In this document: piece after piece, positions 6,743 to 33,249 of the stretch
How the letters are laid out: each line of letters opens with the position of its first letter
How positions within the stretch are numbered: the first letter of the stretch is position 1
Assembly (NCBI GenBank): GCA_017450685.1
Contig: JAFSTB010000018.1
Location: forward strand, 1 to 33,260
DNA from: Paludibacteraceae bacterium
GTDB lineage: Bacteria > Bacteroidota > Bacteroidia > Bacteroidales > Paludibacteraceae
DNA length: 33,260 bases
Reading direction: 5' to 3'
Notes under the pieces: generated by a model
The model's input: the letters and a program-made list of their open reading frames with translations, nothing else
What the model was told of the DNA's origin: nothing
Databases searched by the model: none
Made by a program: the position numbers and the translations under genes

Positions 6743-9568
6743 TCAGACCACGATATTAACTATTCTGCCTGGTACGACGATAATGCGTTTAGGTGTGTCG
6801 CCTGCCAGTTGTCGTTTTGTTTCGTCGCTTGCCATCACTGCTTGTTCGACAGCCGTTTTGTCCATCGTCTTGGGCAGTGAGAGTGTGAAGCGCACTTTGC
6901 CGTTGAACTGAACGGGGTAGTTGATATTATCTTCTTCCAAGTATTTCTCGTCCCATGTAGGCCATTGAGCGTCAACCACAAATGTGTTGTGTCCGCATTG
7001 TTGCCACATAGCCTCTGCTATATGTGGTGCGTATGGTGCGAGCAGTATGGCAATAGTCTCCAAGACGCAGCGTTTGTTGCAGCCTAAGGTGCTCAACTCC
7101 GTTTGGGCTATCATAAAGGCGGGGATAGAGGTGTTGAAAGAGAAGTTCTCTATGTCCCATGTTATCTTCTTTATCAGTTTATGCAAGCTGCGCAACTCTT
7201 CTCGTGTGGGTTCACCGTCGGCAGGCTCAGCATACATGTTCCACAGTTTCTTCAGGAAACGTGACACACCGTCTATACCTTTGGTGTCCCAAGGTTTGGA
7301 CATCTCAAGCGGACCGAGGAACATCTCGTACATACGCAGCGTGTCGGCACCATAGGCGGCTATCACATCGTCGGGATTGACCACATTATACATCGATTTG
7401 GACATTTTTTCCACTGCCCAACCGCATATATACTGTTTGTTGGTAGCCTGACCCATATAAGGATTATCTTCATCGGTGGAGCCGTCGGCATAGATGAAGG
7501 TAGCGTTCTTATATTCAGGTGATTCGAGGCGGAAAGCGTCCACATCAAGTATATCGTTATGCACGATATTGACATTGACGTGTATAGGTTGCACCTTATC
7601 TTTGTATTCGGGGTTGTCGATGAGGTTGTAACTGATATAGAGGTTGCCTGTTGCTCCTTCGCCTATGTAGCGATAGACGAAATTGCTGCGACCTTGTATC
7701 ATACCCTGATTGATAAGTTTTTGGAAGGGTTCGTCCTCACAAACCACGCCGAGGTCGAAGAGGAACTTATTCCAGAAGCGTGAGTAGATAAGGTGACCTG
7801 TTGCATGTTCGGTGCCGCCTATATAGACATTGACTTTTCGCCAATAGTCGTTGGCTTCGCGACTGACTAATGCCTCTTTGTTTTGGTTATCCATATAGCG
7901 CAGGTAGTAGGCACTTGAACCTGCAAAACCGGGCATAGTGCATAACTCCAAGGGGAAGATGGTCTTATTATCAATCAGTTGTTTGCTTACCACTTTGTTG
8001 TTAGCCGTATTCCAAGCCCACATATCGGCGTGTCCTAATGGCGGTTCGCCTGTTTCGGTGGGCAGGAACTTATCCAGTTCGGGCAGGCAAAGCGGCAGAC
8101 AACTATCGGGGATGAGATATGGCATATTGTCCTTATAATAAACGGGGAATGGTTCACCCCAATAGCGTTGGCGTGAGAAGATAGCGTCGCGCAGACGATA
8201 GTTGACTTTCACCCGACCTATACCTGTATTGGTGATATACTCTTTCATTTTGGCAATAGCCTCTTTCACTTCCAAGCCGTTGAGGAAATCGGAGTTGATC
8301 ATCCGTCCTTCTTTGGCATCGAACGACTGTTCGCTGACATCGGCACCTTCGATAAGAGGTATGATAGGCAGGTTGAAATGTCGTGCGAAAGCGTAGTCGC
8401 GACTGTCGTGTGCCGGTACTGCCATTATAGCGCCTGTGCCGTAGCCGGAGAGCACATAGTCAGATACATAGACTGGTATCTCGGCATGTGTGAAGGGGTG
8501 AATGGCGTATGCACCGGTGAAAACACCGGTCACATGCCGGTCGGCTATGCGTTCACGCTCGGTGCGGTGTTTGCAGCGGTCTAAATAAGCTTCCACCTCT
8601 TCGCGGTGCTCGTCGGTGACCAACATAGACACATACTCACTCTCAGGGGCTAACACCATAAAGGTGACACCGAAGATTGTGTCGGCACGGGTGGTGAAAA
8701 TCTTTATATTGACTTCATTCTCTGTTTTCCCTTTGGGGTTTTTGATGGTGAAGTTCATCTCCGCACCTTCCGATTTGCCTATCCAGTTGCGTTGTGTCTC
8801 TTTGAGGCTGTCTGTCCAGTCTATACGGTCTAATCCTTCGAGCAGTCGTCCGGCGTAGGCACTCACGCGCAGACTCCATTGCCGCATCACTCGTTGTTCG
8901 ACGGGATAGCCGCCACGCACACTCAGCCCTTCACTCACCTCATCGTTTGCCAGAACGGTACCTAACTTCGGACACCAGTTGACTTTGGTGTCGCTCAGAT
9001 AGGCTATACGGTATTGCATCAGTCGCTCTTGTTGCTCTTTCTCTGTAAGTGTAGCCCAAGTGGGGTCGGTCTGCTCAAAGCGTGCCACTAACTCACTGAT
9101 AGGTCGTGCCTTCTGCTGAACGGTGTCGTAATAGGAGTTGAACATCTGCGCAAAAGCCCACTGGGTCCAGTGGTAGAAATCAGGGTCACAGGTGCGTACC
9201 TCACGATCCCAATCATAACTGAAACCGATCTTCTTCAACTGACTGATATATCGGGCGATATTCTCATTGGTTGTTTTTTCGGGATGTTGACCTGTCTTGA
9301 TGGCATATTGTTCGGCGGGCAAGCCGTAAGCGTCAAAACCCATAGGGTGCAACACATTATATCCGCAAAGACGTTTGTAGCGGCTATAGATATCCGAAGC
9401 CACATAACCTAAGGGGTGACCAACGTGCAATCCTGCGCCGCTGGGATAGGGGAACATATCCAATACATAAAACGGCTTCTTTTCGCTTTTGTTGCTTACT
9501 TTATAAACGCCGGCTTCTGCCCAACGCTGTTGCCAATATTGCTCTATCTGCTTGAAATTGTATTCCAT
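6743..9568 (-). CDS. leuS: Leucyl-tRNA synthetase
   Basis: A 941-residue class I synthetase that charges tRNA-Leu with leucine in the cytosol. The HIGH-type motif is HVGH at residues 48-51 (within [15 protein letters not shown]) and the KMSKS loop is near residue 720. The CP1 editing domain lies between them ([21 protein letters not shown], then [14 protein letters not shown]). Length is typical for Bacteroidota LeuRS, which is longer than the E. coli enzyme. It starts 12 bases after the transketolase stop and is probably the last gene of the transcript from the 12.9-kb promoter. It ends with TGA before a 95-base AT-rich gap. Confidence 0.98.
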
Positions 9569-13066: not shown

Positions 13067-14740
13067 ATGGCAGACGACAAAAAAATCATCTTCTCAATGG
13101 TGGGTGTGAGCAAGGCGTTCAACCCGCAGAAAAAAGTGCTGAACAACATCTATCTGAGTTTCTTCTACGGCGCAAAAATCGGCATCATCGGTCTGAACGG
13201 TTCAGGTAAAAGTACACTGATGAAAATAATAGCCGGTGTGGAAAAGAACTACGAAGGAGAGGTGGTTTTTTCGCCGGGTTATAGTGTCGGTTATCTGGAG
13301 CAAGACCCGCATTTGGATCCCAATAAGACTGTCCGCGAATGTGTGCAGGAAGGCGTTCAGCCGGTGATGGATATGTTGCGCGAGTATGACGAGATCAACA
13401 ACGCTTTTGCCGACCCCGAAGCCGACTACGACAAACTGCTCTCCCGTCAAGCCGAACTGCAAGATAAGTTGGATGCCGCCGACGCTTGGAACATAGACCA
13501 AAAATTAGACCGTGCCATGGACGCACTGCGCTGCCCCGATGATGATGCTAATGTGCATACACTTTCAGGCGGTGAGAGAAGGCGTGTGGCTCTCTGCCGA
13601 CTGTTGCTGCAACAGCCTGACATTCTGCTCCTTGACGAGCCTACCAACCACCTCGATGCTGAGTCGATCGACTGGCTCGAACAGCACCTGCAACAATATG
13701 CAGGAACGGTGATTTGTATAACGCACGACCGCTATTTCCTTGACCATGTGGCAGGTTGGATTCTTGAACTCGACCGTGGCGAGGGCATCCCGTGGAAAGG
13801 TAACTACTCGTCCTGGCTCGAACAAAAAACGGCTCGTATGGCTCAAGAAGAGAAACAAGCCAGCAAAAGGCGCAAGACACTTGAACGCGAATTGGAATGG
13901 GTGCGAATGGCTCCTAAAGCCCGACAAGCCAAAGGAAAAGCACGTCTGGCTGCTTACGACCGTATGATGAACGAAGAACAGAAAGAGAGAGAAGAGAAAT
14001 TGGAGATATTCATTCCTAACGGTCCCAGATTAGGCAATAAGGTCATCAATGCCGAACACGTGAAAAAAGCCTTTGGCGACCGCGTCCTATTCGAGGATAT
14101 GAACTTTATGCTTCCTCCTAACGGTATAGTGGGTGTCATAGGTCCGAACGGTGCCGGCAAAACGACACTGTTCAGAATGATAATGGGTATGGAAAAAGCC
14201 GACGAAGGACAGTTCCAAGTGGGCGAAACGGTGAAAGTGGGATATGTGGATCAAGTGCACTCTAATATAGACCCTCAAAAGACTGTCTATGAGACTATTG
14301 CCAACGGGACTGAGTATATCCGCGTAGGTGGCAGAGAGGTGAATGCTCGAGCCTACTTGAGCCGCTTCAATTTCACTGGTGCCGACCAGGAAAAGAAATG
14401 CGGTGTGCTCTCCGGCGGTGAGCGTAACCGTCTGCATTTAGCACTCACTCTTAAGTCAGAAGCCAATGTCCTTTTGCTCGACGAACCGACTAACGATATA
14501 GATGTCAACACCCTCCGCGCTTTGGAAGAAGGATTGGAGAACTTCGCCGGTTGCGCCGTCGTCATCAGTCACGACCGCTGGTTCCTCGACCGTATATGCA
14601 CACACATCCTTGCCTACGAAGGTGACAGCCGTGTGTGGTGGTTCGAAGGCAGTTATAGCGACTATGAACTGAACAAGAAAGCACGACTGGGTGAAGACGC
14701 TACACAACCTAAAAGAATAAGGTATAAAAAGTTAGTATAA
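13067..14740 (+). CDS. ettA: Energy-dependent translational throttle protein EttA (ABC-F ATPase)
   Basis: A 557-residue soluble protein with two ABC ATPase domains and no membrane segments. Domain 1 has Walker A GLNGSGKST (about 43-51), signature LSGGERRRVALCRLLL and Walker B LLLDEPTNHLD. An interdomain linker rich in Arg, Lys and Glu follows (about 245-330). Domain 2 has GPNGAGKTT, LSGGERNRLHLALTL and LLLDEPTNDID. The EttA-type arm is present in domain 1. EttA binds the ribosomal E site and links the first elongation step to the ATP/ADP ratio. Length matches E. coli EttA (555). It is the first gene downstream of the rightward promoter and is followed after 72 bases by fabD. Confidence 0.94.
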   Translation: MADDKKIIFSMVGVSKAFNPQKKVLNNIYLSFFYGAKIGIIGLNGSGKSTLMKIIAGVEKNYEGEVVFSPGYSVGYLEQDPHLDPNKTVRECVQEGVQPVMDMLREYDEINNAFADPEADYDKLLSRQAELQDKLDAADAWNIDQKLDRAMDALRCPDDDANVHTLSGGERRRVALCRLLLQQPDILLLDEPTNHLDAESIDWLEQHLQQYAGTVICITHDRYFLDHVAGWILELDRGEGIPWKGNYSSWLEQKTARMAQEEKQASKRRKTLERELEWVRMAPKARQAKGKARLAAYDRMMNEEQKEREEKLEIFIPNGPRLGNKVINAEHVKKAFGDRVLFEDMNFMLPPNGIVGVIGPNGAGKTTLFRMIMGMEKADEGQFQVGETVKVGYVDQVHSNIDPQKTVYETIANGTEYIRVGGREVNARAYLSRFNFTGADQEKKCGVLSGGERNRLHLALTLKSEANVLLLDEPTNDIDVNTLRALEEGLENFAGCAVVISHDRWFLDRICTHILAYEGDSRVWWFEGSYSDYELNKKARLGEDATQPKRIRYKKLV

Positions 14741-14812
14741 TTTTGCTTAAAAGAGGTTGATAATCAAAGTCAATCTTGGAAAAATACGAACAAAATACAA
14801 TCGAAAAAGATA

Positions 14813-15706
14813 ATGAAAGCATTTGTTTTTCCGGGACAAGGTTCCCAATATGTGGGTATGGGTAAGGATCTGTATGATGCCTATCCCGTAGCCCGCGAGA
14901 TGTTTGAAAAAGCCAACGAAGTGTTAGGTTTTCGCCTTACCGATATTATGTTCGGCAGTGGCGATGATTCTCGAATAGACGAAGATACCGAAGCCTTGCG
15001 CCAAACGCGCGTCACACAACCAGCCGTCTTTGTTCATTCGGTGGTTGCCGGTCGCGTGATGACTATCCTTCAACCCGATATGGTGGCAGGTCATAGTCTG
15101 GGCGAGTATTCCGCTCTGGTGGCTTGTGGCGCTCTTCGCTATGAAGATGCTCTGTTGCTGGTCAGCAAACGCGCTATGGCAATGCAGAAAGCCTGTGAAA
15201 GACAGGAGAGTACGATGGCTGCCGTCTTAGGACTGCCCGACGACCAAGTGGATGATATTTGTCAGCGCGTGCAAGGACAAGTGGTGGTGGCAGCCAACTT
15301 CAACTGCCCGGGGCAAGTGGTCATCAGCGGTACAATAGAAGGAGTGGATGAAGCCTGCCGACAACTGAAAGAAGCAGGTGCCAAACGCGCTATCAAACTG
15401 CCCGTAGGCGGTGCCTTCCATTCACCTTTGATGCAACCCGCTGCCGAAGAACTCAAACAGGCTATCCTCGACACACCGTTCAGCACACCGCACTGCCCCG
15501 TATATCAAAATGTAAACGCCTATCCGCAGACAGACCCCGAACAGATACGACAAAACCTACTTATGCAACTCACCGCTCCCGTTCGCTGGACACAGACAAT
15601 ACGCAATATGGTAATCGACGGAGCAAACGAGTTCTATGAGTTCGGACCCGGGGACGTACTCAAAGGACTGATAAGAAAAATTAACTCCGAAGTAACAGTA
15701 GGATAA
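14813..15706 (+). CDS. fabD: Malonyl-CoA:ACP transacylase
   Basis: A 297-residue cytosolic enzyme that moves malonyl from CoA to acyl carrier protein to feed fatty-acid elongation. The N-terminus [17 protein letters not shown] is the family signature. The nucleophile is Ser95 in [16 protein letters not shown] and the catalytic His203 is in [12 protein letters not shown]. Length is near the usual 300-310. The ATG at 14813 gives the expected N-terminus. It is 16 bases upstream of aspS. No other fatty-acid genes are next to it. Confidence 0.96.
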
Positions 15707-15722
15707 TAAACACACATTATAT

Positions 15723-17492
15723 ATGTATCGTACTAAAACGTGTGGAGAGTTACGACTCTCCGATGTCAACCAAACAGTGACCCTCGCCGGATGGGTACAA
15801 CGCATCCGCAAAATGGGTGGAATGACTTTTATTGACCTGCGTGACCGATATGGCATCACACAACTCGCTTTCAGCGGCGACCAACTGACACTTGCCGAAG
15901 GACTCGGACGCGAATATGTGCTGCAAGTGACAGGTAAAGTGATTGAACGACAGAGCAAAAACGCTCAACTGCCCACAGGCGAGATAGAGATAGAAGTTCA
16001 GCAACTTAATATCCTCAATCCCGCTCTCACACCTCCTTTCACCATCGAAGATGACACCGACGGTGGCGACGACCTGAGAATGAAATATCGCTATCTGGAC
16101 CTGCGCCGTACAGCCGTCAGACGTAACCTCGAGTTGCGACACAAAATGGCTTTTGAAGTGCGCCGATACCTTGACGAGCAAGGCTTCCTTGAAGTAGAAA
16201 CACCAGTCCTTGTCAACTCCACACCCGAAGGCGCACGCGACTTCGTGGTGCCGTCACGTATGAACCCCGGCACTTTCTACGCCCTGCCACAGTCACCGCA
16301 GACACTCAAACAACTGCTGATGGTAAGCGGATTCGACAGATATTTCCAAATAGTCAAATGCTTCCGCGACGAAGATCTCAGAGCCGACCGACAACCGGAA
16401 TTTACGCAGATCGACTGTGAAATGTCGTTCGTCGAACAAGAAGATATACTGCAGATGTTCGAAGGGATGTCAAGACACCTGTTCAAGACTATCCTTAATA
16501 TCGACCTCCCCGCTCTGCCGCGAATGACGTGGGCTGACGCAATGAAATACTACGGCAGCGACAAACCCGATACACGTTTCGGTATGACCTTTGTCGAACT
16601 GCAAGACCTCTTCCACGAAGCCGAAGCGAAGAAGCCCGAAGCAGAGCGATTCACCGTCTTCGCCAACGCACAATATATAGGTGGTATATGTGCCAAAGGT
16701 TGTGCTACCTATACCCGCAAACAGTTGGACGCTCTCACCGACTTCGTGCGCCGTCCGCAAGTGGGTGCCAAAGGAATGGTCTATGCACGCGTCGAAGCCG
16801 ACGGAACAGTCAAATCGTCTGTGGATAAGTTCTACTCGCAAGACGTGTTGCAACAAATGGCTCAACAGATGCAGGCACAAGCAGGCGACCTTATACTCAT
16901 ACTCAGCGGTGACGATGCAATGAAGACGCGCAAACAACTGAGTGAACTGCGTCTGGAGATGGGCAGACAGTTAGGATTGCGCGACCCGAAACAGTTCTCT
17001 TGCCTCTGGGTTATCGACTTCCCGATGTACGAGTGGTCCGACGAAGAACAACGACTGATGGCTATGCACCATCCCTTCACCTCACCTAAACCAGAAGACA
17101 TACCTCTGCTCGACACTGATCCAGCCGCCGTGCGTGCCAATGCCTACGATATGGTTATCAACGGAGTGGAAGTGGGAGGCGGTAGCATACGTATCCACGA
17201 TGCCAAACTGCAAGAGAAAATCTTCGAGATACTCGGCTTCACACCCGAACAAGCACAACAGAAATTCGGCTTCCTGATGAACGCCTTCAAATACGGTGCT
17301 CCACCTCACGGAGGACTTGCCTACGGTCTTGACCGCTTCGTCAGTCTCTTCGCCGGATTAGACAGTATTCGCGACTGCATCGCCTTCCCAAAAAACAACC
17401 AAGGCAAAGATGTGATGCTCGGCGCACCAGGTGTCATCGACCAAATACAATTGGATGAACTGCAAATAGATATAAAGAAAAAGTCTAACTAA
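15723..17492 (+). CDS. aspS: Aspartyl-tRNA synthetase (bacterial type)
   Basis: A 589-residue class II synthetase of the bacterial type. An N-terminal OB-fold anticodon-binding domain ([20 protein letters not shown]) is followed by the catalytic core: motif 2 is visible as [18 protein letters not shown], motif 3 as [12 protein letters not shown]. The GAD insertion domain lies between them. It charges tRNA-Asp in the cytosol. The bacterial length with the GAD domain suggests the tRNA-Asp type, but I cannot exclude a non-discriminating enzyme. It sits between fabD and lpdA with gaps of 16 and 20 bases. Confidence 0.98.
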
Positions 17493-17512
17493 ACAAAATA
17501 AACGGGTTGATT

Positions 17513-18859
17513 ATGAAGTATTTTCTTGCTATAATAGGTGGCGGTCCTGCCGGTTATACCGCCGCTGCCGAAGCCTCTAAGAAAGGCAAAGATGTTGTTC
17601 TCTTTGAGCAAAATACTTTGGGTGGCACCTGCCTTAATGTAGGATGCATACCCACCAAGACACTGCTCTATAGTGCCAAACAGTACTATAATGCCACTCA
17701 CGCCGACAAGTATGGCATCAAAGCCACTGAAGTGAGTTTCGACTATCAGAAGATAGCACAGCGCAAACAAAAAGTGGTGCGTAAGTTGGTGGCAGGTATC
17801 AAACAGAAACTCAATAACGACCATTGTACGGTGGTTAGTGGAATGGCTTTCGTGGTCAGCCGAACAGACGATACCGTTGTTATCGCTTGCGGCGAACAGC
17901 AGTACGAAGCCGAAAACCTGCTCATCTGCACCGGCTCGTCCAACTTCGTTCCACCCATACGCGGAGTGCAAGACAATACAGCAGTATGGGACTCTACATC
18001 AGCCCTCGCCGCCAATACCCTTCCACAGTCGATGATAATAGTGGGTGGCGGTGTGATAGGTATGGAGTTCGCTACTCTCTATCACGAGTTCGGTGTGCCG
18101 GTGACGGTCATTGAAGCCATGCCCAATATACTGCCTAACCTCGACCAAGAGGTGGTGAAGATCCTGCGCGACAAATACGAAAAAGCCGGCATACGTATTC
18201 TGACCTCCACTAAGGTGATGTCGCTCAACCAAAACCAAGTGACGGCACAGACCTCTGAAGGTGAGACACTGACTCTCGAAGCCGAACATATACTCATCAG
18301 TGTAGGTCGTCGCCCTAACCTTGACGGTTTGGAAGCACTGGACGGATTGGAGTTTACGCGCAAAGGTATCAACGTGGACGAAGGTATGCGCACCAACCTG
18401 CCTAACGTATATGCAGCAGGCGATATAACCGGCAAGATAATGCTTGCACATGTGGCTTCCCGACAAGCCGAAGTGGCAGTGAACCGTATGCTCAAAACCA
18501 TTCCCGTTCAACGCATAGCCTATAACGCTATCCCATCCGTGGTCTATACTAATCCCGAGATTGCTTCTGTGGGTCTAACCGAACAGGACGCAGCCGACAT
18601 ACCGCACGAAGTGCGCACTATGCCGATGACCTTCTCCGGTAGGTTCGTGGCTGAAAATGAAGCCGAAACAGGTCTGTGCAAGATGCTCGTGGATAGTAAA
18701 CATAACACCGTCCTCGGTGTACATATGATTGGTAACCCTTGCTCAGAATTTGTGGCAGCAGCCTCTTTCGCCGTCAGAATGGGATACACCGTTGACGAAT
18801 GTAAGCAAGTGGTCTTCCCACACCCCACCGTAAGCGAGATACTAAAAGAGATATTATGA
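17513..18859 (+). CDS. lpdA: Dihydrolipoyl dehydrogenase
   Basis: A 448-residue FAD-dependent disulfide oxidoreductase, the E3 subunit of 2-oxo acid dehydrogenase or glycine cleavage complexes; it reoxidises dihydrolipoamide with NAD+. The FAD-binding GGGPAGYTAA is at residues 9-18, and the redox pair Cys40/Cys45 is in GGTCLNVGCIPTK. The NAD-binding GGGVIGMEFA and the C-terminal active site His437-x4-Glu442 (HPTVSE) are present. I chose the ATG at 17513; a TTG six bases upstream is in frame but unlikely. No E1, E2 or lipoate genes are nearby, so its partner complex is unknown. The stop overlaps the NUDIX start by four bases (ATGA). Confidence 0.93.
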   Translation: MKYFLAIIGGGPAGYTAAAEASKKGKDVVLFEQNTLGGTCLNVGCIPTKTLLYSAKQYYNATHADKYGIKATEVSFDYQKIAQRKQKVVRKLVAGIKQKLNNDHCTVVSGMAFVVSRTDDTVVIACGEQQYEAENLLICTGSSNFVPPIRGVQDNTAVWDSTSALAANTLPQSMIIVGGGVIGMEFATLYHEFGVPVTVIEAMPNILPNLDQEVVKILRDKYEKAGIRILTSTKVMSLNQNQVTAQTSEGETLTLEAEHILISVGRRPNLDGLEALDGLEFTRKGINVDEGMRTNLPNVYAAGDITGKIMLAHVASRQAEVAVNRMLKTIPVQRIAYNAIPSVVYTNPEIASVGLTEQDAADIPHEVRTMPMTFSGRFVAENEAETGLCKMLVDSKHNTVLGVHMIGNPCSEFVAAASFAVRMGYTVDECKQVVFPHPTVSEILKEIL

Positions 18860-26867: not shown

Positions 26868-27125
26868 ATGAGCAAAGTAAACGACATATCTGAACAACCG
26901 CGTATCGTGAAATCTCACGATATACATATATATACTGCCTACGCGGAATGGATAGCCGAGTTGAAATATCGCTATCGTTCGGCGCAAGTGAAGGCGTCTG
27001 TACGCGTGAACGCGGAGAAGTTGCTCTTTAATTGGGAACTTGGTCGTGACTTGGTGCAAAAGAAAGCCGAAGAGCGTTGGGGCGCAGGTGTATCGGAAAA
27101 ATCCGTATCTTTGCACGCAGTATGA
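26868..27125 (+). pseudogene. Truncated DUF1016 (YhcG-type PD-(D/E)XK nuclease) remnant
   Basis: This 85-codon frame begins with a plausible ATG and reads as the N-terminal part of DUF1016/YhcG proteins: IAELKYRYRSAQVKASVRVN, LLFNWELGRDLVQKKAEERWGAGV. Full-length relatives have over 300 residues with a C-terminal nuclease domain. Family-like text ends after WGAGV, at about base 27090; the rest (SEKSVSLHAV) is unrelated and runs into the next gene. I saw no remainder of the gene downstream of the ATPase. It appears to be a deletion remnant that abuts the following ATPase gene. Confidence 0.72.
27106..27113 (+). promoter_or_regulatory. Possible -7 element of the AAA-ATPase gene
   Basis: TATCTTTG matches TAnnTTTG and lies eight bases before the ATG at 27122, right after the junction with the DUF1016 remnant. 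No TTTG is found at the expected -33 distance, so support is partial. Confidence 0.4.
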
Positions 27126-28909
27126 ATATGGACTTACTAAAATTACCCATAGGTGAACAATCGTTTGAAAAGTTAAGAACTGAAAATCGATTGTATGTGG
27201 ATAAGACTGAGTATATCTATCGGATGGCTCAGGATGGTACCCATTATTTCCTATCCAGACCAAGACGGTTTGGTAAGTCTCTTCTGTTAAGTACCATTGA
27301 AGCCTATTTTCTCGGTAAACGAGAATTGTTTAATGGTCTATATATCGGACAAGTTGAGAAAGAGTGGCCTATTCATCCTGTATTTCATTTGGATTATAAC
27401 GCGCAGACTTACGATTCGGAACAGAAATTATATAATGTTATCAATGATTATCTTGCTCAACAAGAAACTATTTATGGAACAGAACCAAGCGAGGTGGATC
27501 TAAGTCTGCGGTTCATGGGGATAATCCGTCGTGCGTATGAGAAGACAGGTAAACGAGTTGTAATACTGGTGGATGAGTATGATAAACCACTGTTGCAGGC
27601 AATAGATAATCCTGTACTGCAAGACAGATACAGAAATATACTGCGTGGTTTTTATGCTGTCCTCAAGACAATGGATCAGTATATACAATTCTCTTTGTTG
27701 ACAGGCATAACGAAATTTAGCAAAATCAGTATCTTCAGTGATCTGAATAATTTAAGGGACATTTCTCGGAACAGATATTATGCATCCATTTGTGGCATAA
27801 CAGATGAGGAAATAGATAGAGATTTATATCCATACATTCTTCGCTTTTCTGAGGAAACAAATAAATCCTACGAAGAGATTCGCAAACAACTGCAGACTAT
27901 GTATGATGGTTACCATTTTGTAGATCAGACTCCCGGGTTGTATAATCCTTTTAGTTTGATGAATGCGATTTGGTGGAAAGAAATAGGCAGTTACTGGTTT
28001 GAGACCGGCACCCCAACTGTTCTTGTAGAGATGTTGCAACGCAATCATTATTCACTGCCGGACTTAGAAGAACCGGTTGATACGTCCGCCTTGGATAGCA
28101 AAGATGGGAATAACGATAGCATCGTACCTCTATTGTACCAAAGTGGGTATTTATCCATACTACGCAGCGACGAGGCAGGACTCGTGAGTTGGTTGACCTT
28201 CCCGAACGAAGAAGTGCGGAGTGGTTTCTTTAAGTTCTTGCTGCCATACTATACGTCAATACAAAGAACGCGAACAAATGCTATCCTGTTGGGTTTTATT
28301 GATGATGTGCGGAAGGGAAACGTGGCACAATTCTTAACTCGTTTACAGTCCTTCTTCGCGGATTTCCAATACGATGCACAGACAACTCCTGAAGCACATT
28401 TCCGTAACGTTCTATATATCTTATGCAAACTCATCGGTTTGCAAGTAGATGCGGAGTATATGACATCTGACGGACGGATAGATTTACTGATGCGTACTGA
28501 TAAGTACGTTTATATTATCGAATGCAAAATTGATAGTACGGCGCAAGTGGCATTGCAACAAATCAAAGATAAAGAATATATGTTGCCATGGACGTTGGAT
28601 AATCGTCAAAAGATCTTGATAGGTCTTAATTTCTCCACCACTACCCGTCGTCCCAATGGCTGGATAATTGAATATGAGGATGGTACTACTGTGGAAAAGA
28701 CTGTGGAAAAGACTGTGGAAAAGACATCAGATAAGATATTAGCACTGATAAAAACTAATCCTCAAATCACAATGAAAGAGATTGCTCAAACCCTTTCCAT
28801 GTCAGAGCGTGGTGTCGAAGAGCAAATAAAAGGGATGAGGGACAAGTCTCTTAAAAGAGTAGGAGGACGAAAAAAAGGTCATTGGGAGATAATCTCTACC
28901 GACCGATGA
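27122..28909 (+). CDS. AAA-ATPase/PD-(D/E)XK nuclease-family protein (DUF1703 type) with C-terminal winged helix
   Basis: A 595-residue protein in three parts. The N-terminal AAA-ATPase-like domain has a P-loop-like RPRRFGKS (46-53) and Walker B VVILVDEYDKPLL (about 146-157). A PD-(D/E)XK-like domain near 450-470 shows GRIDLLMRTDKYVYIIECKID (D...ExK). A linker holds three TVEK units (about 523-534), followed by a winged-helix domain (KILALIKTNPQITMKEIAQT, then LSMSERGVEEQIKGM). The first two parts are common in Bacteroidota, often in many copies; the winged-helix tail is less usual. A defence or mobile role is a guess. I chose the ATG at 27122; an in-frame start 45 bases upstream lies in the remnant gene. 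The sequence is AT-richer than the core genes. Confidence 0.85.
   Translation: MNMDLLKLPIGEQSFEKLRTENRLYVDKTEYIYRMAQDGTHYFLSRPRRFGKSLLLSTIEAYFLGKRELFNGLYIGQVEKEWPIHPVFHLDYNAQTYDSEQKLYNVINDYLAQQETIYGTEPSEVDLSLRFMGIIRRAYEKTGKRVVILVDEYDKPLLQAIDNPVLQDRYRNILRGFYAVLKTMDQYIQFSLLTGITKFSKISIFSDLNNLRDISRNRYYASICGITDEEIDRDLYPYILRFSEETNKSYEEIRKQLQTMYDGYHFVDQTPGLYNPFSLMNAIWWKEIGSYWFETGTPTVLVEMLQRNHYSLPDLEEPVDTSALDSKDGNNDSIVPLLYQSGYLSILRSDEAGLVSWLTFPNEEVRSGFFKFLLPYYTSIQRTRTNAILLGFIDDVRKGNVAQFLTRLQSFFADFQYDAQTTPEAHFRNVLYILCKLIGLQVDAEYMTSDGRIDLLMRTDKYVYIIECKIDSTAQVALQQIKDKEYMLPWTLDNRQKILIGLNFSTTTRRPNGWIIEYEDGTTVEKTVEKTVEKTSDKILALIKTNPQITMKEIAQTLSMSERGVEEQIKGMRDKSLKRVGGRKKGHWEIISTDR
28688..28723 (+). repeat. 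Three 12-bp tandem repeats in the ATPase gene linker
   Basis: The unit ACTGTGGAAAAG occurs three times in a row without mismatch, encoding TVEK three times between the nuclease-like domain and the winged helix. Such a unit can gain or lose copies while keeping frame. Confidence 0.97.
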
Positions 28910-30312: not shown

Positions 30313-31461
30313 ATGGCAGATTACAAACAAATAGTAGATTTTATTCGTGACCTGTATGGTAATTCGAATTTCGTACCTCTGGCAGTTCCGAAGTTTATTG
30401 GTAACGAGAAAAAGTACCTCAACGAGTGTATTGATACCACGTTTGTCAGTAGCGTTGGAAAGTTTGTGAATCGTTTTGAGGAGGACATGGCACGCTATAC
30501 GGGTGCAAAACGCGCGGTTGTGTGCGTCAGTGGAACCAATGCGTTGCACATGGCACTGATGCTTGTGGGAGTGGAGCGCGATGATGAAGTGCTGACGCAA
30601 GCCCTGACCTTCATCGCAACCTGCAATGCCCTCAGTTATATAGGTGCTCATCCTGTGTTTTTGGATGTGGATGTGGAGACAATGGGGTTGTCGCCCGATG
30701 CGGTCAAAGAGTGGCTCGCAAAGAACGCAGAGATTCGCAATGGTCAATGCTATAACAAACGTACCGATCGCAGAGTGAAAGCCTGCGTCCCGATGCATAC
30801 GTTCGGTCATCCGGTTCGTTTGGACGAACTGGTTGCGGTCTGCGAGGAATATCATATTGAGATAGTGGAAGATGCCGCAGAGAGTATCGGCAGCCTCTAC
30901 AAAGGCAAACACACCGGAACGTTTGGCAAGATAGGTGCTTTAAGTTTCAATGGCAACAAGACGATCACCACCGGTGGCGGAGGAATGTTGCTATTTAATG
31001 ACGAAGAGTTAGGCGCTTATGCCAAACATCTTACTACGCAAGCCAAAATTCCTCATCGTTGGGAGTTCCGCCATGACCATATCGGCTATAACTATCGAAT
31101 GCCGAATATCAACGCCGCCCTTGGTTGTGCGCAGTTGGAGCATATTGAGGAATACGTGGCGGACAAACGTGCCACAGCTGCAGCCTACCGTGATTATTTC
31201 AGCCGAATGGATGGCGTAGAGTTCTTCGTAGAACCGGAAAACACCCGCTCTAACTATTGGCTAAACGCGGTATTACTGCCCAATCGTGAAGAACAGCAAG
31301 CGTTCTTGCAATACACCAATGATAACGGTGTCATGACTCGTCCGATTTGGGAACTCATGAACCGCTTGCCGATGTTCGAACACTGCGAAACCGATCATCT
31401 AACCAACACCCGGATGTTCGCAGACAGAGTAGTGAACATCCCCAGTAGCGTGAGATTGTAA
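30313..31461 (+). CDS. LegC-type sugar aminotransferase (DegT/DnrJ/EryC1/StrS family)
   Basis: A 382-residue pyridoxal-phosphate enzyme expected to transfer an amino group to a 4-keto-6-deoxy sugar nucleotide, as LegC does in legionaminic acid synthesis. The PLP lysine is Lys216 in SFNGNKTITTGGGGML. VVCVSGTNALHMALML, EIVEDAAESIGSLYKG and RMPNINAALGCAQLEHIEEY are conserved family blocks. The C-terminus NIPSSVRL matches relatives, so the gene is full length. It pairs with the dehydratase four bases upstream. No neuB, neuC or cytidylyltransferase genes follow, so the final sugar is uncertain (legionaminic acid, bacillosamine-like or another amino sugar). Confidence 0.88.
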   Translation: MADYKQIVDFIRDLYGNSNFVPLAVPKFIGNEKKYLNECIDTTFVSSVGKFVNRFEEDMARYTGAKRAVVCVSGTNALHMALMLVGVERDDEVLTQALTFIATCNALSYIGAHPVFLDVDVETMGLSPDAVKEWLAKNAEIRNGQCYNKRTDRRVKACVPMHTFGHPVRLDELVAVCEEYHIEIVEDAAESIGSLYKGKHTGTFGKIGALSFNGNKTITTGGGGMLLFNDEELGAYAKHLTTQAKIPHRWEFRHDHIGYNYRMPNINAALGCAQLEHIEEYVADKRATAAAYRDYFSRMDGVEFFVEPENTRSNYWLNAVLLPNREEQQAFLQYTNDNGVMTRPIWELMNRLPMFEHCETDHLTNTRMFADRVVNIPSSVRL

Positions 31462-31494
31462 GAAGAGATATTAACATATATTAAATACAACTAT

Positions 31495-32505
31495 ATGATT
31501 ACTAAATTTAAAGCAGATGAATTTACTGCATTCACACATCTTCAAATCAATTTCAGTGAAGGAATTAATATCCTGATAGGAGAAAACGGAACAGGAAAGA
31601 CTCATGTGATGAAAGCAATTTATTCTGCTTGTTGTGTGTCCGATAAACGTCTTGGTAGAACTTTTGATGATAAATTAAAAGCTGTATTTCTGCCAAATAC
31701 AATTGGCCGACTTGTTCATAGGAAAATAGGTAGGGCTAGCGGGAAAATAACTATTTATAGGGAGCACGATGGTAAGGATGGATATATATCATGTACCATA
31801 ACTACATTAGGCAAAGCTGATGTCATCCATAAGAACTGGATAGCAGACAAAAAAAATGAATCTATCTTTATTCCTGTTAAGGATATGTTAGCTAATGCAC
31901 CTGGTTTTCGCGCTTTATATTCTCAAAAGGATATTTCATATGAGGAAGTATATCCTGATATTATTGATAAAGCATTTCTCCCTATCCCGCGAGGAAAACA
32001 AGATGATAAGATTGCAAAATTATTAACAATATTGCAAGGAGCCATTGATGGACGAGTAATAGAGAAACAAGAGCATTTCTATTTGAAAAATAAAAATGGA
32101 GAACTCGAATTTCCTCTATTAGCAGAAGGATTTAGGAAGTTAGGCTTGTTATACACCTTAATTCACAATGGTACACTAACAAAAGGCAGTGTGCTTTTTT
32201 GGGATGAGCCTGAGGCTAATCTTAACCCTAAGTTATCACGGGTTCTTGTTCAGGTACTTCTTGAATTGCAGAGATTAGGAGTTCAAATCTTTATCAGTAC
32301 GCATGATTATATTTTATTGAAAGAGTTTCAATTAGCGGCAACAGAAAAAGATAAAATTTGTTACCATGCTCTTTATAGAGGGGAAGATATGGAAATCCAA
32401 TGTCAAACAACAGATAATTTTTCATCTATATTTCATAACGCAATCGATGAAACATTGGCTTCTATCTTAGATCGTGAAATCTCTAATGAAATAAGCGCAT
32501 TATGA
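31495..32505 (+). CDS. ABC/SMC-type AAA ATPase of a two-gene module
   Basis: A 336-residue ATPase of the RecF/SbcC/OLD-like group. The N-terminus FKADEFTAFTHLQINFSEGI leads to Walker A GENGTGKT (29-36). A middle insert replaces the long coiled coil. The signature-like LLAEGFRKLG is near 209-218, Walker B VLFWDEPEANLNP at 233-245, and the switch histidine His270 is in STHDY. Such ATPases drive several anti-phage systems with a nuclease partner (Septu, PARIS, Gabija are known examples). The start codon of the next gene overlaps its stop (ATGA), so the two are coupled. It begins 33 bases after the LegC gene with no clear promoter. It is clearly AT-rich. Confidence 0.85.
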   Translation: MITKFKADEFTAFTHLQINFSEGINILIGENGTGKTHVMKAIYSACCVSDKRLGRTFDDKLKAVFLPNTIGRLVHRKIGRASGKITIYREHDGKDGYISCTITTLGKADVIHKNWIADKKNESIFIPVKDMLANAPGFRALYSQKDISYEEVYPDIIDKAFLPIPRGKQDDKIAKLLTILQGAIDGRVIEKQEHFYLKNKNGELEFPLLAEGFRKLGLLYTLIHNGTLTKGSVLFWDEPEANLNPKLSRVLVQVLLELQRLGVQIFISTHDYILLKEFQLAATEKDKICYHALYRGEDMEIQCQTTDNFSSIFHNAIDETLASILDREISNEISAL

Positions 32506-33026
32506 CAGCAACAGTTGATGGCTATATCTTTGATTTTCCTGGAGCTAAGGAGTTATATAAATTTGATGAGACAGATAATCAATCTCCCCATTATCATGGA
32601 GTCAGTGTTATGAAATCCGTTGATGTGATGGCGATATTTTCTAAATTTGACATGTGGATTGAAATCAAGGATTATCAAGATGAGGAGATTCAGCGAATGC
32701 AGAAAGAAGGAGACCAGAGAAAGAAAGGGGATACATATCATCTCAAAACATGGCTGAGGAATAATTTAGTCCGTAAATATCGTGATACATTCCTATACAG
32801 ATATGCGGAAAATAAGATTGGCAAACCTATTATATATGTATGTTTATTAAATTTTGACCCAATACTCCTCTCATACATAAGGCAGGAATTAATAAGGAAT
32901 ATTCCGTGTGGAATTCCTACAAATAGGTGGAATCGTTCTCTAATTGAGAGGTTGATTGTTTTGGATGAAAAAGCATGGGGTAGAAATGAAGTACTGCAAC
33001 AGATAGGTACATGTACAAAAATTTAG
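32502..33026 (+). CDS. Small protein with PD-(D/E)XK nuclease-like motif, partner of the ATPase
   Basis: A 174-residue protein I do not recognise as a named family. Asp41 in SVDVMAIF and Glu54-x-Lys56 in MWIEIKD, 12 residues between Asp and Glu, on predicted beta strands, match the D...ExK layout of PD-(D/E)XK nucleases. After it come helical basic segments (RRN-like: TYHLKTWLRNNLVRKYRDTF) and a strand YVCLLNFD. There is no signal peptide or membrane segment. It overlaps the ATPase gene by four bases, so it is likely made in fixed ratio with it. It could be the effector cutting nucleic acid when the ATPase senses a trigger; this is inference. It is AT-rich, unlike the core genes. Confidence 0.7.
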   Translation: MTATVDGYIFDFPGAKELYKFDETDNQSPHYHGVSVMKSVDVMAIFSKFDMWIEIKDYQDEEIQRMQKEGDQRKKGDTYHLKTWLRNNLVRKYRDTFLYRYAENKIGKPIIYVCLLNFDPILLSYIRQELIRNIPCGIPTNRWNRSLIERLIVLDEKAWGRNEVLQQIGTCTKI

Positions 33027-33118: not shown

Positions 33119-33228
33119 TTGACTAAACCTGAAAAAGGTTGACTCGTTTACTGAGAAGGAATCTTAAGAATCGTAAACTTTTGACTTGTTTACTGAAAAG
33201 GTTTACTCCTATGCTAAGGAGGTTGACT
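33119..33228. repeat. Cluster of TTGACT/TTTACT direct repeats
   Basis: TTKACT occurs seven times in about 110 bases (from 33119, 33139, 33147, 33181, 33189, 33202 and 33223). The stretches 33139-33159 and 33181-33201 are 19 of 21 bases identical. Small inverted repeats are present too (AACCT/AGGTT, GTAAAC/GTTTAC, CTCCT/AGGAG). There is no gene in 33027-33260. Confidence 0.75.
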
Positions 33229-33241
33229 TTTTAAGATGATG

Positions 33242-33249
33242 CAAAGGTA
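33242..33249 (-). promoter_or_regulatory. Leftward -7 promoter element at the window edge
   Basis: On the minus strand this is TACCTTTG, the same core as at the tRNA promoters. The -33 partner would lie past the window end. It would drive transcription through the repeat cluster, where no minus-strand gene is seen. Confidence 0.4.

Follow-up and report, generated by a model that had tools for sequence, protein, structure and literature searches.

At the distal end of the 33,260-nucleotide stretch of DNA analysed here (contig JAFSTB010000018.1 of a Paludibacteraceae bacterium; "the window" in the following) two overlapping genes raise the question of whether they constitute an anti-phage module and whether such a module already bears a name. 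Both genes start with ATG and lie on the forward strand. The first one (positions 31495 to 32505; assigned by means of the open reading frame list, Pfam, PADLOC, alignment and model) encodes an ATPase head of the ATP-binding cassette (ABC) type comprising 336 residues, the second one (32502 to 33026; open reading frame list, PADLOC, alignment and model) a small PD-(D/E)XK-type nuclease-like protein of 174 residues. At 32502 to 32505 of the same strand, the sequence ATGA unites the start codon of the second with the stop codon of the first gene and, judging from this overlap, translation of the second gene is probably coupled to that of the first. A preceding inspection of the bare letters, referred to as the sequence-only reading, had reported both frames and their four-base overlap, and coordinates, strand and lengths were all verified in the sequence. 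It had taken the pair for an undescribed ATPase-nuclease module. While the shape of the pair, reminiscent of Septu and of the phage anti-restriction-induced system (PARIS), and the overlap of its genes stand, the notion of an undescribed system had to be abandoned since both genes strongly match HEC-02 in PADLOC, i.e. a system already named, which the sequence-only reading itself had regarded as speaking against its proposal. Nor is its statement supported that the small partner is not one of the named effectors, as PADLOC carries this partner as HEC-02B and the combination of an OLD-ABC ATPase with a PD-(D/E)XK nuclease is already published (see below). HEC stands for "Hma-embedded candidate", and HEC-02A and HEC-02B are catalogued in PADLOC-DB 2.0.0. 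We consider the window pair, at a probability of about 0.62, to be a copy of HEC-02 and thereby a two-gene candidate defence module with an ATPase-gated nuclease.

The assignment to HEC-02 is carried by profile searches. In PADLOC, the ATPase matches the HEC-02A profile PDLC04213 with an E-value of 6.9e-118 over residues 1 to 333 of 336, the next system after HEC-02 being PARIS, whose AriA is matched with an E-value of 1.2e-23. Its Pfam matches are AAA_21 (E 1.5e-21) and AAA_15 (E 3.3e-15). The small protein is recognised by nine PADLOC profiles every one of which is named HEC-02, and best by HEC-02B (PDLC04229; E 2e-45, residues 1 to 162 of 174). Of the features examined for membership in HEC-02, a match to the A profile, a match to the B profile and adjacency on the same strand are all present in the window. 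Searches with the small protein yielded nothing better than an E-value of 0.1 in Pfam (best NuDC, E 0.2), no match in NCBIfam, a best E-value of only 0.12 in PHROGs and of 0.49 among Protein Data Bank (PDB) sequences. Neither HNH or PtuB nor TOPRIM, DUF4435 or AriB was matched in Pfam and PADLOC at E-values up to 1, which agrees with the sequence-only reading in placing the partner outside the HNH and TOPRIM families. Within the catalogue, a profile labelled HEC-02B (PDLC04146, 344 positions) matches the ATPase and one labelled HEC-02A (PDLC04145, 170 positions) matches the nuclease partners; the names seem to be swapped in these two PADLOC-DB profiles.

According to its predicted model (predicted local distance difference test score, pLDDT, of 91.3), HEC-02A is an ABC ATPase head of the kind known from PtuA, Rad50 and SMC which is devoid of a long coiled coil; its best Foldseek match is PtuA (E 3.4e-16). 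For HEC-02B, predicted as a single chain (pLDDT 90.8), the nearest folds in the PDB are those of R.BspD6I2, Can2, Cdn1, BstEII and Nt.BspD6I, with FokI, McrC, Hna and Avs4 at lower ranks. R.BspD6I2, Can2/Cdn1 and FokI we take to be members of the PD-(D/E)XK superfamily, whose residue pattern D...(D/E)-x-K is present in the alignment of HEC-02B. Sequence and model together suggest that HEC-02B is probably a metal-dependent, single-domain nuclease of PD-(D/E)XK type.

The residues on which these assignments depend are conserved. Window HEC-02A contains the Walker A motif GENGTGKT at residues 29 to 36, including K35, the Walker B motif VLFWDEPEA with D237 and E238, and the switch triplet STH with H270. 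All these motifs, described as intact by the sequence-only reading, were found, and across 48 aligned A sequences, that of the window among them, no variation occurs at G29, N31, G34, K35, T36, D237, E238 or H270. Owing to variation at neighbouring positions, strict text patterns failed to recognise Walker A in seven loci and the S/T-S/T-H triplet in many. The key residues of window HEC-02B are D22, D41, E54-x-K56 and K92. D41, E54 and K56, which the sequence-only reading had singled out, are in place and present in 61 of the 61 rows reaching them in an alignment of 62 non-redundant rows, from which L002, L003, L004 and L007 had been dropped beforehand as identical to others and to which L015 contributed no B frame; D22 likewise occurs in every one of 57 rows and K92 in every one of 55. 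Fifty of the underlying loci were retrieved by means of peptide patterns containing a V-D or E-I-K stretch, which biases these counts towards the motif. Sets found by profile or through the ATPase are freer of this bias. Among partners found through HEC-02A, counted by eye, the E-x-K element is kept in all 26 rows reaching the motif while the motif aspartate is present in 20 and replaced by glutamate in six; some of these rows coincide with places of the main B alignment and one is the window itself.

Fifty loci spread over many phyla were obtained when the genome collection was scanned with an alignment of four sequences; scanning of viral contigs added two. When viral_contigs was searched with the single B protein, relatives were absent, and the phage collection contained no match to it at E-values up to 0.01. 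Of 72,556 plasmid records, one, typed as conjugative, holds a B homologue. The HEC-02B profile matches only the window's own genome among 300 genomes of the family and, with this one included, 15 of the 395 phylum genomes, some of them weakly (down to E 8.5e-5); the phylum has Porphyromonas and Chlorobiaceae loci and is presumably the Bacteroidota. The two genes are kept together: in 51 of the 52 genome and viral loci an A homologue lies directly 5' of B, the exception, L040, starting at a contig edge. Disrupted or truncated A genes occur in a few of the 52 (L018, L055, L063, L067). L018 harbours the closest relative (51% for B), and its HEC-02A is broken near the start with N-terminal residues in another frame (about 8950 to 9100), due to either an assembly error or a pseudogene. 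Examination of 55 rows (the 52 loci, L005, L006 and the window) yielded 50 pairs with both starts called, in 44 of which start and stop overlap by exactly four bases; the overlap differs in L030, L031, L054, L060, L064 and L065.

The converse survey started from the ATPase. At an E-value of 1e-25 the HEC-02A profile matched 23 of the 395 phylum genomes, 30 of its 31 matches yielding loci, including that of the window. A downstream partner reaching the motif is present in 26 of these 30 loci (25 of 29 if the window is disregarded), a truncated one in two (L083, L085) and none in two (L086, L094), the A frame of L094 containing a stop. Several of these partners are too distant for our own profiles. 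Five divergent ones were tested and all five match PADLOC HEC-02B profiles; the partners outside these five were named by eye. When the 52-row B alignment was compared as a profile with the lone divergent partner found in L095, the probability was an insignificant 2.3%, so the kinship of this partner rests on its PADLOC match. The sequence-only reading had made its proposal dependent on the co-occurrence of homologues in other genomes, and such co-occurrence is seen from both sides. The HEC-02 pair is genuine and widely distributed, and a candidate module against viruses.

In other genomes the pair is not only kept together but also often placed beside genes of the bacteriophage exclusion (BREX) system. 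To name the neighbours, selected proteins were scanned with PADLOC and labelled neighbours compared by blastp across all loci. By raw count, BREX genes lie within the fetched flank of 25 of the 52 loci (L016, L017, L019, L020, L023, L024, L025, L027, L028, L030, L031, L033 to L035, L037 to L046 and L053). L065 carries HmaA and HmaB upstream of the pair, in L064 only short pieces match HmaA and HmaB weakly, and a type IIG enzyme is encoded upstream in L062. The remaining 24 loci, some on short contigs and with flanks lacking wider annotation, were unmatched by these BREX, Hma and type IIG queries. In 12 loci (L016, L023, L024, L027, L028, L030, L031, L035, L037, L041, L042, L045) the pair is situated between a BrxC-type and a PglX-type gene, the BrxC call in L024 and L041 being based on position and on similarity to each other. 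In six others (L038, L039, L043, L044, L046, L053) PglX is encoded by two genes, one for the N-terminal and one for the C-terminal half, and the pair lies between them; the halves were verified by PADLOC in L044. L034 shows the N-terminal half upstream of the pair, and its contig stops before the remainder. The stretch holding the split-PglX BREX operon also contains a reverse transcriptase-nitrilase gene in L044 and HEC-05/BrxU in L044 and L046. In L023, the region 3' of the PglX gene (13961 to 18009) matches Ppl (E 6e-152) and, more weakly, pAgo (E 6e-17).

A quick tree of HEC-02A (48 rows, with L018 and further rows lacking a called start excluded) contains one supported clade in which 16 of 16 rows are BREX-associated, and the BREX label requires four changes on this tree compared with 16.3 in shuffles. 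The window groups with the Porphyromonas copies L032, L036 and L047 (support 99), copies around which the queries used revealed neither BREX nor Hma genes; the contig of L036 is 3.8 kb long. Including this clade, the same applies to 22 of the 48 rows. Long branches are flagged by the tree program for L066, L064, L024 and L045.

The surroundings of the window copy itself are of another kind. Directly upstream lie polysaccharide-type genes instead of BREX genes, and the contig ends at 33260, 234 bases downstream of HEC-02B, so nothing further downstream is visible. A defence island, as considered by the sequence-only reading, was therefore not seen around this copy. In the window's own genome, which is 85.62% complete, no BREX system was seen: the only PglZ-domain protein carries a receiver domain of response-regulator type at its N-terminus and looks like PorX, and BREX was on this ground rejected for the assembled part of the genome. 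Immediately upstream of the module and not belonging to it, a gene for a DegT/DnrJ/EryC1 aminotransferase (30313 to 31461, forward strand) forms the edge of a variable slot, as revealed by DNA comparison with congeners. At an E-value of 1e-80 this gene is common to four of 100 other congeners (L101 to L104), and in all four, DNA homology with the window stops at the aminotransferase stop codon (31461 to 31464). A different gene follows in L102 to L104, while the contig of L101 ends after about 310 bases. Hence, the HEC-02 pair occupies a variable slot, and we infer that it was recently acquired. The AT-rich character noted by the sequence-only reading is borne out: at 0.345, the G+C content of 32001 to 33000 is the lowest among 33 one-kilobase windows, the remainder ranging from 0.387 to 0.534. 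By eye, the genes behind the aminotransferase code in L102 for a PIG-L-like deacetylase, in L103 for a DUF1016-like protein and in L104 for another Walker-A ATPase. Farther upstream in the window, at 26868 to 28909, a short DUF1016-like fragment (by eye, compared with L103) overlaps a 610-residue protein with AAA-ATPase_like and PDDEXK_9 domains. Near the contig end, the 129-base stretch 33120 to 33248 recurs in the same genome as a 93% copy at C35:54100-54228, adjacent to what by eye is a GroEL-like frame, and is an intergenic repeat.

How such a pair might act is suggested by analogy with Septu and PARIS, from which ATP-dependent gating and activation by infection are taken. HEC-02A would dimerise on ATP and keep the HEC-02B nuclease in check. 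Infection would be sensed via phage DNA or via a phage protein which disables host defence, whereupon HEC-02A would activate HEC-02B. The latter would cut nucleic acid, and phage or infected cell would be stopped. Relatives of the B fold lead us to guess that the substrate may be DNA.

The frequent place beside BREX genes invites the view that HEC-02 is an accessory BREX subunit, e.g. an additional nuclease or a protein guarding PglX, standalone copies being relics or serving another host system. It would account for the 12 pairs located between BrxC-type and PglX-type genes, the six between PglX halves and the clade that is BREX-associated throughout. It accounts less well for the 22 tree rows, among them the window's clade, in which no BREX or Hma gene was matched, and for a host genome whose only PglZ-domain match belongs to a response-regulator protein, so we consider it unlikely. 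Somewhat less probable still is a guard of a host modification enzyme, in which a phage attack on BREX would free the ATPase and thereby switch on the PD-(D/E)XK nuclease while free-standing copies like that of the window would guard something else; this idea derives from the group of BREX operons where HEC-02 sits between the two PglX-half genes.

Two further explanations dispense with defence altogether. A selfish module of toxin-antitoxin or plasmid-exclusion type, its A protein counteracting a toxic nuclease B and so stabilising mobile DNA, would be consistent with two genes of which one encodes a potentially toxic nuclease, with their position in a variable slot behind the aminotransferase gene and with the B homologue on a conjugative plasmid. 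Yet, a place inside restriction-type operons better suits an effector, and a single match among all plasmid records, with none among phage records, hardly befits such an element, rendering this explanation improbable. A role in DNA repair or recombination, as in SbcCD or Rad50-Mre11, appears very improbable and was dropped because occurrence is patchy (one of 300 family and 15 of 395 phylum genomes); moreover, the partner is of PD-(D/E)XK type and the pair is frequently placed among BREX and Hma genes. The candidate defence module with an ATPase-gated nuclease is hence the reading we prefer.

Among known systems, Septu (PtuA-PtuB) likewise combines an ABC ATPase of similar fold with a small nuclease encoded behind it. 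Membership in Septu was nonetheless rejected since HEC-02B shows no HNH or PtuB match and HEC-02A attains only 36.3 bits with the NCBIfam PtuA model (retron Ec78), whose cut-off is 500. PARIS (AriA-AriB) shares an AAA_21-type ATPase, as reflected in the AriA match, and a small partner; it was dismissed since HEC-02B lacks any TOPRIM, DUF4435 or AriB match and the HEC-02A profile fits the ATPase far better. HEC-02B itself most closely resembles R.BspD6I2, Can2/Cdn1 and FokI in its predicted fold. With HEC-02, the window pair shares strong profile matches of both genes and their adjacency on one strand, differing in that, as far as the contig shows, it is embedded in neither Hma nor BREX. A whole-word literature search for HEC-02 gave a single match, an unrelated chemistry paper, and a mechanism for HEC-02 was not found in the literature searched; PMC8565338 yielded passages on Hma only, and PMC9252829 yielded none. 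For other members of the series, the relevant passages of PMC12988326, citing the 2024 preprint that defines HEC systems (10.1101/2024.01.29.577857), describe several, HEC-06 among them, as antiviral; HEC-04, according to a passage in PMC12111858, is an ABC ATPase-TOPRIM protein active against T4 and T5, and HEC-05 is equated with BrxU in PMC11411939. Close by description are the pairs which Rakesh and Krishnan (2026; PMC12839542) outline: OLD-ABC ATPases found near BREX or BREX-related loci in 594 taxa, paired with HNH, PD-(D/E)XK or PIN nucleases and proposed to be backup suicidal effectors. The word "split" is absent from the main text of that paper. Architecture and kind of place of the OLD-ABC pairs with a PD-(D/E)XK endonuclease are the same as in many relatives found here, whereas the window copy lies outside BREX as far as seen. 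Since such pairs are published from BREX loci, the kind is known and, for cataloguing, the window contributes one added member and no new kind. What began as a guess read by hand has become a defined candidate, a widespread and catalogued ABC ATPase-nuclease pair, whose free-standing form is a two-gene system approachable without a BREX background.
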